From NCBI GenBank assembly GCA_945903545.1, contig CAMDOO010000016.1, forward strand, positions 1 to 48,731: a stretch of DNA of 48,731 nt. The letters are read 5' to 3'. Below, one piece after another: positions 3,130-48,431 of this stretch (positions are counted from its first letter, which is position 1; each line of letters starts with the position of its first letter). Both the position numbers and the translations under genes were made by a program. The notes below the pieces were generated by a model. The model was not told where the DNA came from and ran no database searches. It saw only the letters and a program-made list of their open reading frames with translations. This DNA is from Opitutus sp. GAS368. GTDB taxonomy: Bacteria > Verrucomicrobiota > Verrucomicrobiia > Opitutales > Opitutaceae.

Positions 3130-3148
3130 GCGGCCAATTTCAGGAGGG

Positions 3149-3475
3149 TTGGCACGCCACGACGCAACGACGCCAAGGTCGGAGGAGAACCGGGCGGGAT
3201 TTTATCGGTTTCGTGCCGAACCCGATAAAAGCAACTTTCCGTCGCAGGTCGCGGATCTACGCTGCGCGTGAGGACAATCCACCGGCAGAGGTCTGCCGGT
3301 GCTACAGTCGGAATCCTACAGTCGGGGCAAACCTCTGCCCCGGGGAGCGAAAGGCCGCGAAGCGGAGATCCGCCGATGGCGGGGGACACCGTGCTTTTGA
3401 TGGGGCGCAACGCGAACCGTCAAAAGCACTGTCTTTCTCTTCCGACCTTGGCGTCGTTGCGTCGTGGCGTGCCAA
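3149..3475. repeat. MITE-like element with 35-bp perfect terminal inverted repeats
   Basis: The 370 bp between the convergent polymerase and lipoprotein genes holds a perfect 35-bp inverted repeat at 3149-3183 and 3441-3475, starting TTGGCACGCCACGACGCAA. It extends inward to 41 bp with one mismatch. Inside are smaller hairpins: TTTTATCGG-type arms near 3200-3235, a TGTAG-family hairpin at 3280-3301, CGGGGCA/TGCCCCG arms at 3323-3342, and GTGCTTTTGA/TCAAAAGCAC arms near 3389-3429. A direct repeat CTACAGTCGG occurs at 3302 and 3316. No target-site duplication was recognised and no protein is encoded. It may be a non-autonomous mobile element or a nest of several repeats, and could act as a bidirectional terminator. 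Confidence 0.7.
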
Positions 3476-3499
3476 ACTTCCGGCTCCACTCGAACGCGA

Positions 3500-4417
3500 T
3501 CACTTCGCGGTGACGCTGACCGGGATCACGATCTCGCCGGCGCCGAAGCCCTTCACAAAGAGGTTGCCGGAGCCGGGGCGGCCGCCCTCGACGGTGATCG
3601 TCGCGTTGACCTGGCCCTGGGGCACGATGACCTCGGGCATGATCACGCTGTCCGGCACGTCGGTCTGGACGTCGATGAGGACGCCACCGATGGGGGCCGG
3701 GCTCGGGATGGTGAAGGAGAGGCTGGTCCTCTGGCCGGTGCGGAGGGCCAGGTTGGAGGGCGAGACCGAGAGGTTCGACGGGTCGACGCGCAGGGAGCCG
3801 AGCGGGGTGGTGGTGCCGGCGCCGCCGAGGGCGACGCGGTAGGTTTTGCCGGCGTCGAGGGCGGGGACGAAGAAGCTGATGGCGTTGACCGACTCGAACA
3901 CGGTCTTGGCCTGCGTGCCCTCGACATAGATCACGTCCTGCGGGGTGAAACCGCGGCCGCTGACGCCGATGCGCGCGCCGACGGGGCCGCGGTTGGCGAG
4001 GAGGGAGGCGCCGCGCTTGAGGATCTTGGTGTGCTGCACCTCGGTGTAGATCTCGCGGTCTCGGACCGAGCCGTTGCTCTCCACCTTGTAGTGGACGATG
4101 AAGTAGTACGCGATCTCGTCGCGGCCGGACGGAAGCTGGTAGTCGAGCTCGTAGAGGCCCTCGCCGAGGGTGCTGGTGTTGAGCTTGAACTCCTGGCCGT
4201 CGATCACGAGGCGCGGGTCGACGCTGCCCTTGACGATCGTGGCGGCCTTCGGGACGGCGCGGGCCTGGATCGTGTAGATGCTCGAGGGGTTCTCGGGGAT
4301 CGAGGCGGGCGTCAGGTTCGCGAGGGTGAAGTCACAGCCGGTCAGCAGGAAAAGTCCCAGCGTGGAGCCGAGCCAGAAGAGGATTTTCCTCGCGGGTGAA
4401 ATTCGGTTGGTGTGCAT
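3500..4417 (-). CDS. Putative lipoprotein with Ig-like beta-sandwich region
   Basis: A 305-residue predicted lipoprotein. The chosen ATG (4417) starts a typical signal: basic residues, a hydrophobic run, then lipobox LLTGC with Cys28 as the acylation site. The mature part is polar and beta-rich. Residues about 155-230 (GPVGARIGVSGRGFTPQDVIYVEG, AISFFVPALDAGKTYRV) resemble an IPT/TIG-type fold, and the C-terminus resembles a second beta-sandwich domain. The longer reading frame (from 4546) overlaps hemW and lacks signal character, so it was not used. It is divergent from hemW with only 43 bp between starts, so promoters must be compact or overlapping. The role is unknown; envelope location is inferred. 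Confidence 0.8.
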   Translation of the reverse strand: MHTNRISPARKILFWLGSTLGLFLLTGCDFTLANLTPASIPENPSSIYTIQARAVPKAATIVKGSVDPRLVIDGQEFKLNTSTLGEGLYELDYQLPSGRDEIAYYFIVHYKVESNGSVRDREIYTEVQHTKILKRGASLLANRGPVGARIGVSGRGFTPQDVIYVEGTQAKTVFESVNAISFFVPALDAGKTYRVALGGAGTTTPLGSLRVDPSNLSVSPSNLALRTGQRTSLSFTIPSPAPIGGVLIDVQTDVPDSVIMPEVIVPQGQVNATITVEGGRPGSGNLFVKGFGAGEIVIPVSVTAK

Positions 4418-4460: not shown

Positions 4461-5651
4461 ATGACCCACGTCGAGACAGAGCAAGCCAAAGGTGAGGCGG
4501 CGCCCCGGCCGGGTTTGTACATGCATGTCCCGTTCTGTGCGTCCACTTGCGACTTTTGCGCGTTCTACCAAATCAAGCCCACGCCGGGGATGATCGAGCG
4601 GTACTTCGACGGGGTGGAGCGTGAGTTGGAACTGATCCAGCCCGCCCGGACCTACGGCACGGTCTTTTGGGGCGGCGGCACGCCCGGGTTGCTGACCGCG
4701 GGACAGCTGCGCAGGCTCGGTGGCTTGGTGGAAAAGTATCTGGGTGGTCGGCGGGCGACGGAGTGGACCGTCGAATTGGCGCCGGGTTCGGTCACTTCCG
4801 AGCGATTGGAGGCTTTGCGTGAAATCGGTGTCACCCGGGTCTCGCTCGGCGTGCAGAGTTTCCAGCCGCGGCTGCTGGACGCGCTGGGCCGCCAGCACAA
4901 CCGGGGGCAGATCGACCGGGCCTACGAGCGGGTGCGGTCGGCGGGCTTTGCCAGCGTGAACCTTGACCTGATGTTCGCCCTGCCCGGGCAGGAGGAAGCC
5001 GAGTGGCTGGCCGACATCGACACGGCGGTGGGCCTCCAGCCGGACCATCTCTCGACCTACTGCCTGACCTTCGAGGAGGACACGGCGCTCTGGGTGAAGC
5101 TGTCGCAGGGCCGGGTGAAGCTTGATCCTGAGCGGGAGGCGCAGCTCTACGAGGCGACCTGGGCGCGGCTGGCGGAGCGCGGATTTGCGCAGTACGAGGT
5201 CTCGAACTTCGCGCGGCCCGGCCATGCCTGCGTGCACAACCTGAACACCTGGCACATGCACGAGTGGGTGGGCATCGGGCCGTCGGCCGCCTCGCAGCAT
5301 GATGGCTGGCGCGGGCAGAACGTGTCGGATCTCGAGGCTTGGGCGGCAGCCGTGGACCGCGGCGAGCGCTTGACCGCGGAAAAGACCTGCCTGAGTCCGG
5401 CCCTGCTGGCGGAGGACGCGCTGATCTTTGGCTTGCGCATGAATGCCGGGGTGGATCTGGCCCGTTGGCAGGCGGTGAGTCCCGCGGCGCCGTGGGGCGG
5501 GGTGAACGCCTTGCTCGACCGGATGGTGGCGGATGGCCTGGCCCTCCGGGAGGGCACGCGCGTGCGGCTGACCGATCGCGGGCGGTTGCTGGCCGACTCG
5601 ATCGGGGCGGAGGTCATGGCGGCATTCACCGCGGAAGAGGTGGTTCGATGA
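4461..5651 (+). CDS. hemW: Radical SAM HemW-like protein (coproporphyrinogen III oxidase family)
   Basis: A 396-residue radical SAM protein of the HemN/HemW family. The cluster motif is Cys26-x3-Cys30-x2-Cys33 in MHVPFCASTCDFCAFY. The usual HemW blocks follow: TVFWGGGTPGLL, VTRVSLGVQSFQPRLLDALGRQH, INLDLMFALPGQ-like FASVNLDLMFALPGQ, and LSTYCLTFEEDT. The C-terminus carries HNLNTWHMHEWVGIGPSAAS and a winged-helix-like end. HemW proteins are generally heme chaperones rather than true oxidases, and the length fits HemW (about 380) better than HemN (about 455). The ATG at 4461 is preferred over the upstream extension, which overlaps the divergent lipoprotein. The TGA stop overlaps a possible ATG of the next gene (ATGA). 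Confidence 0.88.
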   Translation: MTHVETEQAKGEAAPRPGLYMHVPFCASTCDFCAFYQIKPTPGMIERYFDGVERELELIQPARTYGTVFWGGGTPGLLTAGQLRRLGGLVEKYLGGRRATEWTVELAPGSVTSERLEALREIGVTRVSLGVQSFQPRLLDALGRQHNRGQIDRAYERVRSAGFASVNLDLMFALPGQEEAEWLADIDTAVGLQPDHLSTYCLTFEEDTALWVKLSQGRVKLDPEREAQLYEATWARLAERGFAQYEVSNFARPGHACVHNLNTWHMHEWVGIGPSAASQHDGWRGQNVSDLEAWAAAVDRGERLTAEKTCLSPALLAEDALIFGLRMNAGVDLARWQAVSPAAPWGGVNALLDRMVADGLALREGTRVRLTDRGRLLADSIGAEVMAAFTAEEVVR

Positions 5652-6646
5652 CACACACGACGGCGACGCGGATTCCGGGTGGGGGCACCCGGACTACAGT
5701 GGGAAAGAGATTTGATGTAGCCCGGGTGCCCTCACCCGGGGGATTGAGGCGCATCCTCTGGGCCGCGCTCCTCATCGCGCTCGGCCTCTCCGCCGCCCAT
5801 GCCGCCGACCATGCGCTGGTGCTGCAGACCGATTTCGGCACAAAGGACGGCGCGGTCGCGGCGATGCACGGGGTGGCCTTTGGGGTCAGTGCGAGGCTGA
5901 CGGTTCGCGACCTCAGCCACGAGAACACGCCCTACAACATCTGGGAGGCGGCCTACCGCCTGAGGCAGACGGCGCCGTTCTGGCCGGTGGGCACGGTATT
6001 TGTGTCGGTGGTTGATCCGGGCGTCGGCACCGAGCGGAAGTCGATCGTGCTGCGGACGAAGAGCGGGCACTACTTCGTCGGGCCCGACAACGGCACTTTC
6101 ACCCTGGTGGCCGAGGACCTCGGCCTCGCGGAGGTGCGCGAGATCGATGAGAAGGCCAACCGGCGCGCCGGCTCGGAGAAGTCCTACACCTTTCACGGCC
6201 GCGACGTCTACGCGTTCGTGGGAGCCCGGTTGGCGGCGGGGGTGATCAAGGATGCCGGCGTCGGCCCGTTGCTGCCGCCGAAGATCGTGATGCTTTCCTA
6301 CGAAAAGCCGCGCCGCGACGGCAACGCGCTCGTGGGCAACATCCCCGCGCTCGACTACCAGTACGGGAATGTCTGGACGAATCTCGACGACACCCTGTTC
6401 CGCGGCCTTCAGCCGAAGGTCGGTGAGAAGTTCCGCGTCGTGATCACCCACGGGGCCGAGGTGGTTTACCGCGGCGAGGTGCCCTACGTGAACACCTTTG
6501 GCGACGTGCCGGAGGGCGCGCCGCTGCTTTACCTGAACAGCCTGATGAATGTGTCGTTCGCCCTGAACATGGGCGACTTTGCGAAGAAGCACGGGGTCAG
6601 CTACGGAGCCGAGTGGAGCGTGCGCTTGGAAAAGGCGGGACCGTGA
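5648..6646 (+). CDS. S-adenosylmethionine hydroxide adenosyltransferase (SAM hydrolase) family protein
   Basis: A protein of the DUF62 / SAM hydroxide adenosyltransferase family, which cleaves SAM to adenosine and methionine and is related to fluorinase/chlorinase. Visible blocks are LQTDFGTKDGAVAAMHG, VSVVDPGVGTERKSIVLRT, YFVGPDNGTFTLV and the C-terminal LDYQYGNVWTNLDD. The start is uncertain. ATG at 5648 overlaps the hemW stop (ATGA) and gives 332 residues, but residues 8-32 are then encoded by two repeat hairpins (5674-5698 and 5716-5740). A TTG at 5744 begins MRRILWAALLIALGLSAAHAA if read as Met, a convincing signal peptide, giving 300 residues and suggesting export. I consider the TTG biologically more likely, but report the larger frame. 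Confidence 0.85.
   Translation: MTHTTATRIPGGGTRTTVGKRFDVARVPSPGGLRRILWAALLIALGLSAAHAADHALVLQTDFGTKDGAVAAMHGVAFGVSARLTVRDLSHENTPYNIWEAAYRLRQTAPFWPVGTVFVSVVDPGVGTERKSIVLRTKSGHYFVGPDNGTFTLVAEDLGLAEVREIDEKANRRAGSEKSYTFHGRDVYAFVGARLAAGVIKDAGVGPLLPPKIVMLSYEKPRRDGNALVGNIPALDYQYGNVWTNLDDTLFRGLQPKVGEKFRVVITHGAEVVYRGEVPYVNTFGDVPEGAPLLYLNSLMNVSFALNMGDFAKKHGVSYGAEWSVRLEKAGP
5674..5740. repeat. Head-to-head pair of TGTAG-family hairpins
   Basis: Copy one is on the minus strand: stem TCCGGGTG, loop CCCC, stem CACCCGGA, preceded by TGTAG (CTACA at 5694-5698 on plus). Copy two is on plus: TTGATGTAG at 5712-5720, stem CCCGGGTG 5721-5728, loop CCCT, stem CACCCGGG 5733-5740, then GGATTG. The pair sits after the hemW stop, inside the longest reading frame of the SAM hydrolase. 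The TTG candidate start at 5744 lies within the 3' flank of copy two. Confidence 0.8.
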
Positions 6647-6657
6647 TTTCCCAATCC

Positions 6658-6901
6658 TTTGAACCACTGATTTCACGGATGACACAGATTGCCAAGCCAT
6701 CGGCGGATCTTTTTACAGGAGGGCACGAAGGGCATGGAGGGTTTCAAACCCTCGAACCGTTTTACACGAAGGACCAACGCCAGCGAAGCGACGGACTCTA
6801 CATTGCCGCCTTCGCTCTCTTCGTGTAAATCCATCCTCCGTGCTCTCCGTTCCCTCCTGTAAAATCATCCCCGTCCCCATCCGTGAAACCCGTGGTTAAA
6901 A
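6658..6901. repeat. Nested inverted-repeat island upstream of the M23 peptidase
   Basis: Three nested arm pairs fill the gap between the SAM hydrolase and the peptidase gene. Outer arms are 6658-6681 and 6878-6901 (TTTGAACCAC...TTTCACGGATG type, 21 of 24 paired). Middle arms are 6705-6740 and 6835-6870, about 30 of 36 paired and including a perfect TTTTACAGGAGGG. Inner arms are TTTACACGAAG at 6761-6771 and its complement at 6819-6829. A small hairpin GAGGGTTTCAAACCCTC lies near 6738-6754. The right outer arm contains the GTG start of the peptidase at 6883. Confidence 0.7.
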
Positions 6902-7908
6902 TACTCCGGTGGTTCGTCCTCCTCGCGGCTTCATCTGTGGTGCTCTCCGCCGCTGAGCGCATCGCGATCTCCTGGCCGACGCCGAGCACGGCGTTTGCCC
7001 GCGGGCTTTCGTACACGGAGTTCCTGCAGCACGCGGGGTCGGGTGATCCGGCCTCGGGTGGCTTTGGCTGCGTGCGGACCAACGACACGCAGTTTCACGA
7101 GGGCATCGACATCAAGGCGGTGGGCCGCGATCGGGCGGGCGAGCCGACCGACAAGATCTTCGCGGCGATGGATGGCGTGGTGCGCTACGTGAACACGCGG
7201 CCCGGGGCGAGCAACTATGGCCGGTACATCGTGATCGAGCATCCCGACCAGACGCCGGCGGTGTTCACGCTTTACGCGCATCTTAGCAAGGTGGAGGCCG
7301 GCATTGCGGCGGGCTCACGGGTGACGCGTGGACAGACGATCGGGACGATGGGACGTTCGTCGAGTGGCTCGGCAATCCCGAAGGACCGGGCGCACCTGCA
7401 TTTCGAGATCGGGGTGGTGGTCACGCAGGAGTTCCAGTCCTGGTACACCGCGAGCAAGTTCGGCAGCGCCAACGAGCACGGGGTCTACAACGGCATGAAC
7501 CTGATGGGCATCGACCCGCTGGACTTCATGGCGCAGAACCGCGCGGGCCGGGTGGCCAGCTTCCAGGATTACCTGCAGCGGCAGGTGGCGGCGGTGCGGG
7601 TGCGGATCGCGACGCCGAAGACGCCGGATTTCGTCCGGCGTTATCCCGCGCTCCAGACCAAGGCGGCCCCTTTCATCGTCGGCGGCTGGGAGGTTAAGTT
7701 CAGCTGGTCGGGCCTGCCGGTCGCTTTCACGCCGCTGACGCCGGCCGAGGTGGCGGGACTTTCCGCGAACAAACCCACGGTCATTGCCGCCGACACCGCC
7801 GAACTGCGCCGCCAGAAGTGCAAGAGCCTCGCGGTTTCACGCCGCAATGTTTGGACGATCGGCAAGGACCTGGAGACGGTGCTGCAGCAACTGTTCGGAT
7901 TAAGGTAG
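6883..7908 (+). CDS. Secreted M23 family metallopeptidase (LytM type)
   Basis: A 341-residue peptidoglycan hydrolase-like protein. Residues 1-24 form a signal peptide (hydrophobic run about 8-23). The M23 fold covers roughly 65-180. Zinc ligands are His72 and Asp76 (FHEGID) and His173 of HLHFE (171-175); His133 (YAHLS) and His171 are likely catalytic. The C-terminal 160 residues are not recognised. The start is GTG at 6883, which lies inside the right arm of a repeat island; an alternative GTG follows at 6892. The stop TAG at 7906-7908 is itself the first TAG of a hairpin repeat (GTAGGGCGGA), so both ends of the gene touch repeats. Active-site residues are complete, so activity against cell wall or a pilus/spore-like coat is plausible. 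Confidence 0.88.
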   Translation: MKPVVKILRWFVLLAASSVVLSAAERIAISWPTPSTAFARGLSYTEFLQHAGSGDPASGGFGCVRTNDTQFHEGIDIKAVGRDRAGEPTDKIFAAMDGVVRYVNTRPGASNYGRYIVIEHPDQTPAVFTLYAHLSKVEAGIAAGSRVTRGQTIGTMGRSSSGSAIPKDRAHLHFEIGVVVTQEFQSWYTASKFGSANEHGVYNGMNLMGIDPLDFMAQNRAGRVASFQDYLQRQVAAVRVRIATPKTPDFVRRYPALQTKAAPFIVGGWEVKFSWSGLPVAFTPLTPAEVAGLSANKPTVIAADTAELRRQKCKSLAVSRRNVWTIGKDLETVLQQLFGLR

Positions 7909-23100: not shown

Positions 23101-24357
<1,257 letters not shown>

Positions 24358-24431
24358 ATCCGGGAGGCGAAGCGGCGGGCGGGACCGCACTTCGCGGTTG
24401 CGGAGGGGCGGGGTTGGGCTCTCTTGGCCGC

Positions 24432-29610: not shown

Positions 29611-29725
29611 CCGGTGCATCAGGGGAGCGGCGCGTTCACGAGGCCGGCCGGCCGCAACGCGCCCAGCGGACTTCAGCCGGGATCCGGCTGGGCCGGGGAC
29701 TGGCCCAGCGGCAGGAGCCGATCCG

Positions 29726-30540
29726 TCAGAGCGCGGCGACCTTCGCGGCGTAGGCGGCGGCGTTCAGGATGTAGCTAAAGTCGACGCGCCGGTAGGAGAT
29801 CACCTGCGGGCAGATTGGCGGGTACTTGCCGTTGGCGAACGTCTGGTCGAAGCCCCATCGCCGGATCGGCGGCTGGTAATAGGAGATGGACCAGTCGGCG
29901 GTCTGGATGCGCGAGCTGAACATGGAGACCAAGGAGCCGCGGATGGCGACGGTGTTGGCTCCCCAGTTCTCAAGGAAGCGGGGCAGGTTGTGCACGCCGC
30001 CGCTGAAGATCTGGGTGCCCGACGCGGTGGGTGAGGTGGTGGTGGTCCCGGTGATGAGCGCGGCGGCGACCTCGGTGCTGCCGGAGGCCGAGGGAGCGGC
30101 GGTGGTGAAGCTGCCCCGGGCCGAACTGGCCACGTTGGCGGCCGGCGCGAGCTTCGTGCCGGAGCCGGTGCCGAAATAGTTCGGCGAGAGGATGGTCACG
30201 GCATCGGCCGCAATGGCCGAGGGCGCCTGGATGCTGGCGGTGATGGCGGTGCCCGGCGAATCATCGGGATAGAGGGCGGAGTTGTCCTGGGATCCGTGGC
30301 GTCGGCGTTGATGAAATTCTGCAGGGGGATGTTCTTCAGCTGCTCGATGTAACCCTGCACAATCGTGACGGCGCAGTTCTGGGACACGCTGGCCGCGGCG
30401 AGGCGTCGGGTCTGGACGAAGGACGCGAGGACGGCCGTCATGATCACGGTCATCAGCCCCATCGCGATGAGGACCTCGAAGAGGGAGAACGCGGCCGTGC
30501 GGCGCGGAAATGGCGGGGAATGGGGACTGGTGGGACGCAT
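29726..30540 (-). pseudogene. Frameshifted pseudopilin gene (first of cluster)
   Basis: Two reading frames make one pilin. The first, from ATG 30540, has the prepilin segment AFSLFEVLIAMGLMTVIMTA (Phe-Ser-Leu-Phe-Glu) and runs through IEQLKNIPLQNFINADATDP. At the GGG run 30289-30291 (CCC on minus) the pilin-like sequence moves to another frame, continuing QDNSALYPDDSPGTAITASI to a stop at 29726. One C missing from that run restores a single frame (ADATDPQDNSALYPDD), giving about 271 residues. It may be a real loss-of-function mutation, phase variation at a short homopolymer, or a sequencing error. The leader has no ordinary Gly before Phe (TAA|FSLFE), so processing may be atypical. Confidence 0.78.
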
Positions 30541-44312: not shown

Positions 44313-44447
44313 GGTAGGGCGGAGGTGTCACCTCCGCCGCGATGTTTCGGCCGATCACCGTCGGCTTACCGAAAAATCCTCCGGGCGAGGGAACGCAGAC
44401 CACAAAAGAGAATTGATGTAGGCCGGCAGACCTCTGCCGGCGGATTG
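44313..44447. repeat. Two TGTAG/GTAGGG-family hairpins
   Basis: First: GTAG then stem GGCGGAGGTG, one-base loop, CACCTCCGCC (44318-44338). Second: TTGATGTAG at 44413-44421, stem GCCGGCAG 44422-44429, loop ACCT, stem CTGCCGGC 44434-44441, then GGATTG. The 5' and 3' flanks of the second are identical to those of the copy at 5712-5746 although the stem is different. Confidence 0.75.
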
Positions 44448-46833: not shown

Positions 46834-46918
46834 TCGTTCTCGTTCTCCTACCCGTTCTCGTTCTCCAATGATCGGAGATCGAATTCGAGAAAGAGAAAGA
46901 GTAGGAGAACGAGAACGA
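46834..46918. repeat. Long inverted repeat in the leuC leader
   Basis: TCGTTCTCGTTCTCCTAC (46834-46851) and its perfect complement (46901-46918) can form an 18-bp stem with inner TCTCC/GGAGA pairing. The right arm contains AGGAG (46903-46907) and ends 9 bp before the leuC ATG, so the structure could affect leuC translation. The same CGTTCTC-type repeat occurs upstream of ribD. Confidence 0.7.
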
Positions 46919-48340: not shown

Positions 48341-48345
48341 TCCCA

Positions 48346-48431
48346 GTAGCGAGTAGTGGGTAGCGAGTAGCGAGCATCACACGCGACCGCACCTCCGACC
48401 TACTCGTTACCCACTACCCGCTACTCACTAC
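48346..48431. repeat. Inverted arrays of GTAGYGR heptamers between leuC and leuD
   Basis: The left arm (48346-48373) is four tandem heptamers GTAGCGA, GTAGTGG, GTAGCGA, GTAGCGA. The right arm (48400-48431) is the inverse array: GTAGTGA, GTAGCGG, GTAGTGG, GTAACGA and a partial unit. The arms form a long stem with a few transition mismatches. It lies between two genes whose products form one enzyme and may affect their relative expression. Confidence 0.75.

Follow-up and report, generated by a model that had tools for sequence, protein, structure and literature searches.

Between the genes for a SAM hydroxide adenosyltransferase (SAM_HAT) and an M23 peptidase, the genome of Opitutus sp. GAS368 carries inverted repeats that lie within one another and reach into the coding sequence of the peptidase. 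The locus raises the questions of what kind of element this is, how it came to lie between the two genes, and whether the peptidase owes its start codon to it. The window, i.e., the whole stretch of DNA that was analyzed, has a length of 48,731 nucleotides, and the coordinates of all features are given in Table 1.

Table 1. Features of the SAM_HAT-M23 junction in the window
Feature	Position	Strand	Evidence and remarks
Upstream gene, SAM hydroxide adenosyltransferase (SAM_HAT)	5648..6646	+	PF01887, PF20257
Left outer arm A, CACGGAT-type units	6658..6681	+	Inverted-repeat search; copies of the A family; A-type arms around GxxExxY genes L134, L137, L202
Left middle arm B, ACAGGAGG-type	6705..6740	+	11 loci of the own genome have B within A; intact GxxExxY genes L135, L188 lie in B-type arms
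Left inner arm C (TTTACACGAAG)	6761..6771	+	No counterpart in the other aligned AB copies
Right inner arm C'	6819..6829	+	Inverted-repeat search, AB alignment
Right middle arm B'	6835..6870	+	Inverted-repeat search, AB copies; B'-like remnant in L009
Right outer arm A'	6878..6901	+	Contains the M23 GTG start (6883-6885); same position in sister species L009, L010
Whole AB composite with C	6658..6910	.	AB copies aligned; right end placed by eye
M23 peptidase gene	6883..7908	+	PF01551; 341-aa ORF; start codon and first residues (MKPVVKILR) in the element end

The nested repeat and its dispersed copies

The inverted-repeat search of the window revealed the three nested arm pairs that had been described from the sequence alone, and they are well above chance. 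The outer arms A have a length of 24 nt and match at 88%, the middle arms B have a length of 36 nt and match at 83%, and the inner arms C match at 11 of 11 positions. The nesting is not exactly symmetrical, although it had been described as such: the spacer between the A and B arms has 23 nt on the left and 7 nt on the right, and that between the B and C arms has 20 nt on the left and 5 nt on the right. When folded, the RNA strand reached -110.1 kcal/mol, whereas 200 dinucleotide-shuffled sequences gave -67.1 +/- 4.9 (z -8.8), and none of them was as good. Inverted-repeat pairs with a score of at least 16 were found 79 times in 448,731 sampled bases of the own genome versus twice in the control, which consisted of one first-order Markov sequence.

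Further repeats were observed in the window. A second nested palindrome at 3143-3481 has 47-nt arms (94%) of the CGCAACGACGC type and a 245-nt loop with several smaller hairpins, and a 25-nt piece of it is repeated in inverted orientation at 44423-44447. At 24288-24368 there are two tandem copies of 37 nt (81%), each with one GGNATGTCATC palindrome.

A search with positions 6640-6920 yielded 43 matches in the own genome, the query itself counted, and, thus, the recurrence of the arms that the sequence-only reading had proposed to check was verified. At 11 loci of the own genome B is flanked by A, and these copies align end to end, including the spacers. AB is a composite double palindrome of about 190 bp. 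An AB query from contig C41 had 74 matches, and by our own count near-full copies are present at 18 places of the own genome (query included), where at least 150 of the 191 query bases are covered. As a repeat, the element of the window is ordinary within its own genome. Its B' begins 131 nt after B, versus about 52 nt in other AB copies, and C is an extra palindrome inside B, which lengthens this loop by about 79 bp relative to the B loops elsewhere. Among the AB copies aligned C was seen only in the window, and an ORF-bearing cognate copy for the C arms was not found.

Because A with B itself recurs as a dispersed composite, the comparison of the copies indicates that their nesting is probably old and was probably copied as one unit. 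The proposed successive insertion of one repeat into the loop of another is therefore broadly right, although it did not take the form of three separate events at this site. In all 19 AB copies tested the A arms matched better within a copy than across copies (18.7 versus 15.5, p 5e-5); for the B arms such an excess was absent (11.3 versus 11.3, p 0.52). A smaller test with 10 of the 19 copies (p 0.003) had been biased towards copies with clean arms, and it was rerun on all 19. Compact palindromes lay inside the loop of another palindrome in 9 of 111 cases and inside an arm in none, and a control with random excision gave 10 of 555 in a loop and none in an arm, which this control cannot produce by design. 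The non-ORF DNA is split into loop, arm and neither at 4329 : 3855 : 72904. The counts are only suggestive of an insertion of palindromes that prefers loops. Because the control yields no arm cases, and because of the split of the non-ORF DNA, the frequency of nesting may be only modestly above that of random intergenic insertion, and special targeting is perhaps not needed.

Insertion at the SAM_HAT-M23 junction

The GTG start of the M23 ORF falls within arm A', as had been noted before, and a further in-frame GTG at codon 4 likewise lies within this arm. The element is present at the junction in all three members of the genus. In one sister species (L009) the gap contains the A arms together with a B'-like remnant, and in the other (L010) the A arms enclose a different inner palindrome and other sequence. 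In two other genera (L011 and L026) the repeat is absent, and the stop codon of SAM_HAT shares the sequence ATGA with the start codon of M23. The gap is near zero in L030, and it comprises several hundred bases in L012, L013, L018 and L025, probably with an additional small gene in the first two; for most other relatives fetched there was no SAM_HAT match in the stretch examined. Because there are empty sites with overlapping genes in other genera, this comparison of sequences identifies the whole structure as an insertion between two ancestrally overlapping genes.

The M23 protein begins with MKPVVKILR... in the window, with (V)KSVVKLLR or (V)KSVVKKLR in the sister species, and with MRTALVVL... 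in L011. The A' arm appears to have given the M23 gene its GTG start and its Lys/Arg-rich N-terminus. As several other AB copies run on as ...GGTTAAAAACTCCGG, the right end of the composite may lie at about 6910, and the whole n-region of M23 would derive from the element. The insertion would thereby have broken the overlapping gene junction, and the terminal arm would have been exapted to provide the start codon and, in the M23 signal peptide, the n-region with its positive charges. The site is thus a traceable candidate case of a repeat that enters an overlapping gene junction and donates the downstream start codon. Elsewhere, the frames that start in A' ends were short or probably spurious, and a second convincing case was not found. 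Were the structure transcribed, the fold predicts a sequestration of the GTG, as the sequence-only reading had suggested, and the long hairpin would probably be a processing site for RNase III by analogy to the 23S rRNA intervening sequences.

The very stable fold that includes the GTG, and the outer arms kept in three species, would also fit an attenuator or other conserved RNA that regulates the M23 gene, is under selection and recruited the repeats for this role. However, the inner content is wholly different among the three species, the same element occurs at many unrelated places, the window structure had zero Rfam matches at the gathering score, and a sigma-70-like promoter was absent in 6400-7000. 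This explanation is therefore regarded as very improbable. It is also improbable that the palindromes are structural relics that owe their origin and their lasting perfection to template switching at quasi-palindromes, in the course of replication or repair, instead of to transposition, with nesting as the result of repeated foldback. The better match of A arms within a copy than across copies and the short tandem units of the arms agree with such an origin, but the same AB composite, including its spacer sequence, is found at many unrelated places, and the site without repeat in genera with overlapping genes makes an insertion necessary.

GxxExxY genes between palindromic arms

Arms of the same types were found around genes of the GxxExxY family, A-type arms at three loci and B-type arms around two intact genes (Table 1). 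Such gene-bearing versions occur within the own genome (G000) and the genus; on contig C32 of G000 an A-type and a B-type gene lie at 7231-7572 and 29630-29977, respectively. In the own genome 11 PF13366 matches corresponded to 9 loci after the merging of pieces, and inverted arms (score of at least 15 in 200-nt flanks) were present at 6 of these and missing at 3. Phylum-wide, 52 of 64 loci lay between inverted arms, versus only 7 of 633 mis-paired flanks, and 12 were without arms at this cut-off; the 64 loci comprise the 9 of the own genome and 55 from relatives and the phylum, which were the best-scoring matches rather than all. None of 28 M23 control loci had inverted arms, even at a laxer score of 13. 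Among arms of at least 20 nt a period of 8-10 was found in 45 of 51 cases, and the units pointed outward in 4 of the 52 armed loci, with 10 undecided. The GxxExxY motif was present in 63 of the 64 proteins, and PF13366 matches occurred in only 70 of 144 genomes of the phylum. Outside the phylum four plasmid genes were inspected, of which three had convincing arms (Sphingomonas, Bernardetia and Gemmatirosa, in the last with outward-pointing units) and one had none. In Sphingomonas parapaucimobilis (L289, NZ_CP155749.1 482837-483265) the GxxExxY gene with its CGCGAAG-type inverted arms lies between fabD and fabG on one strand.

The window copy has arms whose 8-10-bp units match in type those that flank GxxExxY genes. 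Because contig C16 has no PF13366 match, the copy was classed as a derivative that lacks the gene and not as a full element; at the M23 site itself no GxxExxY gene was seen. The GxxExxY-linked palindromic element is a grouping proposed here. In the literature searched, with thin coverage of subscription papers and preprints, no description of the association of these genes with palindromes was found, nor of a function of the named family.

One locus (C30) was found in three states. In the sister G002 the A arms enclose an intact, uninterrupted GxxExxY gene. In G000 this gene is split by a palindrome (L070, 15789-15917) that shows an apparent duplication of CTAG. In G001 the gene is missing, and next to the left A arm lies another palindrome. 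In the same region, L070 11881-15519 matches G001:C96:290-3926 over 3.6 kb at 96% identity, versus 81-87% for neighboring stretches between the two species; a recent transfer or a mix during binning is possible.

GxxExxY proteins match PF13366/TIGR04256. D72 and K84 (protein A1) are invariant, and the E column is conserved to 90%. The predicted structure had a pLDDT of 95.8, with PDB chain SSO0001 as its nearest match (Z 8.7, rmsd 4.6 over 105 residues); no solved structure was found for GxxExxY by sequence. With the D...ExK residues in place, the model predicts a small PD-(D/E)XK protein with a restriction-endonuclease-like fold, and, thus, a putative nuclease. The fold list also includes Holliday-junction resolvases (1gef, Z 6.6), but many rows are tied there, and nothing was drawn from this likeness.

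The arm sequences follow the lineage of the protein. A Mantel test of protein identity against arm similarity, which was limited to the 50 loci that had both arms and a clean ORF and excluded 14 of the 64, gave r = 0.38 for all pairs (p <= 0.0005), 0.386 between genomes and 0.33 between families (each p = 0.0005, the permutation floor of the test). For protein identities below 40% the mean arm similarity was 0.23, and it increased to 0.57 for those above 70%. B-type arms pair with one protein group (L135, L188, L201 and L205), to which L197 also belongs, but with a score of 10, and CGCGGAT arms pair with the proteins L134, L199 and L200. This correlation could in part stem not from recognition but from arms and gene being inherited or transferred together as whole elements. 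The coupling makes the arm units a direct, testable candidate substrate for GxxExxY.

An ordinary transposase (DDE or RAYT/Y1) might also have moved the repeats in the manner of MITEs or REPINs, with the GxxExxY gene as a passenger in some copies. The copies are indeed short, palindromic and dispersed, the genome has three Y1_Tnp genes, and the insert with the apparent CTAG duplication in C30 is a real MITE-like insert nearby. However, a passenger gene would not predict that arm sequences track the protein lineage across families, and 49 GxxExxY elements showed no excess of target-site duplication (3.69 nt versus 3.59 nt for mis-paired ends; the ends of the AB copies were viewed by eye only). 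In addition, the palindromes next to the Y1_Tnp genes are not A, B or C but others (TGTAGGAGC..., GTAGGAGCC... and AAGGGGTTGGGCCG...), and a mobilization of the A, B and C arms by RAYT was therefore rejected. The transposase explanation as a whole is considered unlikely. The three RAYT-like genes (L102, L103 and L104 on G000 C44, C18 and C46) each have a distinct flanking palindrome family.

The favored reading, to which we assign a probability of roughly two in three on the basis of these sequences, is that the window structure is a gene-less copy of a GxxExxY-linked family of palindromic repeats, which became nested by later insertions and would have spread in trans. Full-length members would carry the GxxExxY gene in the palindrome loop. 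The nuclease would recognize its cognate arm units and cut the DNA at the palindrome, either as duplex or as extruded hairpin, and element copies with or without the gene could then spread in trans. New palindromes would persist where they land in intergenic loops, which would lead to nesting. Mobility of the element was not observed, and the enzymatic step is proposed with less confidence than the reading as a whole.

IVP genes and comparison with known systems

A parallel class is formed by genes for the 23S-rRNA-intervening-sequence protein (IVP, PF05635), which were detected in 66 of 96 genomes of the phylum. Inverted arms were present at 24 of 42 fetched loci versus 8 of 618 mis-paired ones, and the arms had a period of 7 or 14 in 17 of 21 cases. 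Solved structures that match IVP by sequence are 2gsc and 2rld. In the window, hairpins of TCGTTCTC and AGTAGCG units were observed at 46834-46918 and 48345-48425, and at other places of the genome arms of these unit types surround IVP/four-helix-bundle genes (L148 and L142). A possible link of IVP to DGRs is hinted at by a weak NF033474 match, which is below the cut-off, and by a resemblance stated in PMC10053308.

Both classes can be joined in a tentative reading, which we hold to be somewhat less probable than its opposite. An undescribed class of mobile palindromes would have the GxxExxY proteins as its enzymes; each protein lineage would read its own 8-10-bp arm unit, target hairpins or palindromes, and spread ORF-bearing as well as gene-less copies that nest. 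A parallel class, with 7-bp units, would be driven by Avd-like IVP proteins, and the 23S rRNA intervening sequences would be its branch in rRNA. Element ends could come to serve as start codons and as n-regions of signal peptides.

MITEs of DDE transposons are small and non-autonomous and have terminal inverted repeats, features that they have in common with the window element. As differences from MITEs, its 49 ORF-bearing relatives showed no excess of target-site duplication over mis-paired ends, and the arms diverge between loci and match within a locus. REP/REPIN sequences with RAYT transposases (PMC3116915, PMC2817692, PMC3733652) are also short, dispersed, extragenic palindromes that are (thought to be) mobilized in trans. 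In contrast to these, the arms of the window type are longer and have several tandem units, the linked gene encodes a PD-(D/E)XK protein, and the RAYT-like loci found here carry other palindromes instead of the same palindrome flanking the RAYT gene. The intergenic heptamer repeats of Beggiatoaceae (PMC4679880) are tandem 7-bp units between genes and reminiscent of the IVP-type arms; they were reported as direct repeats, and S23, a four-helix bundle and palindromes are unmentioned in the text of this source that was searched.

The 23S rRNA intervening sequence of Coxiella, according to the accessible part of PMC4990558, has terminal inverted repeats with a 28-bp stem around the small S23/IVP ORF in its loop and replaces the tetraloop of a hairpin in helix 45; the origin of such sequences is called unclear there. 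Unlike it, the window copy has no ORF, lies outside rRNA between the SAM_HAT and M23 genes, and has arms of the GxxExxY type (8-10-bp units) instead of the IVP type (7-bp units). The likeness is that IVP genes in this phylum are also found in intergenic palindromes, and as the arrangement with the gene in the loop thus also exists outside rRNA, it suggests a framework in which the origin of the 23S rRNA intervening sequences could be understood.
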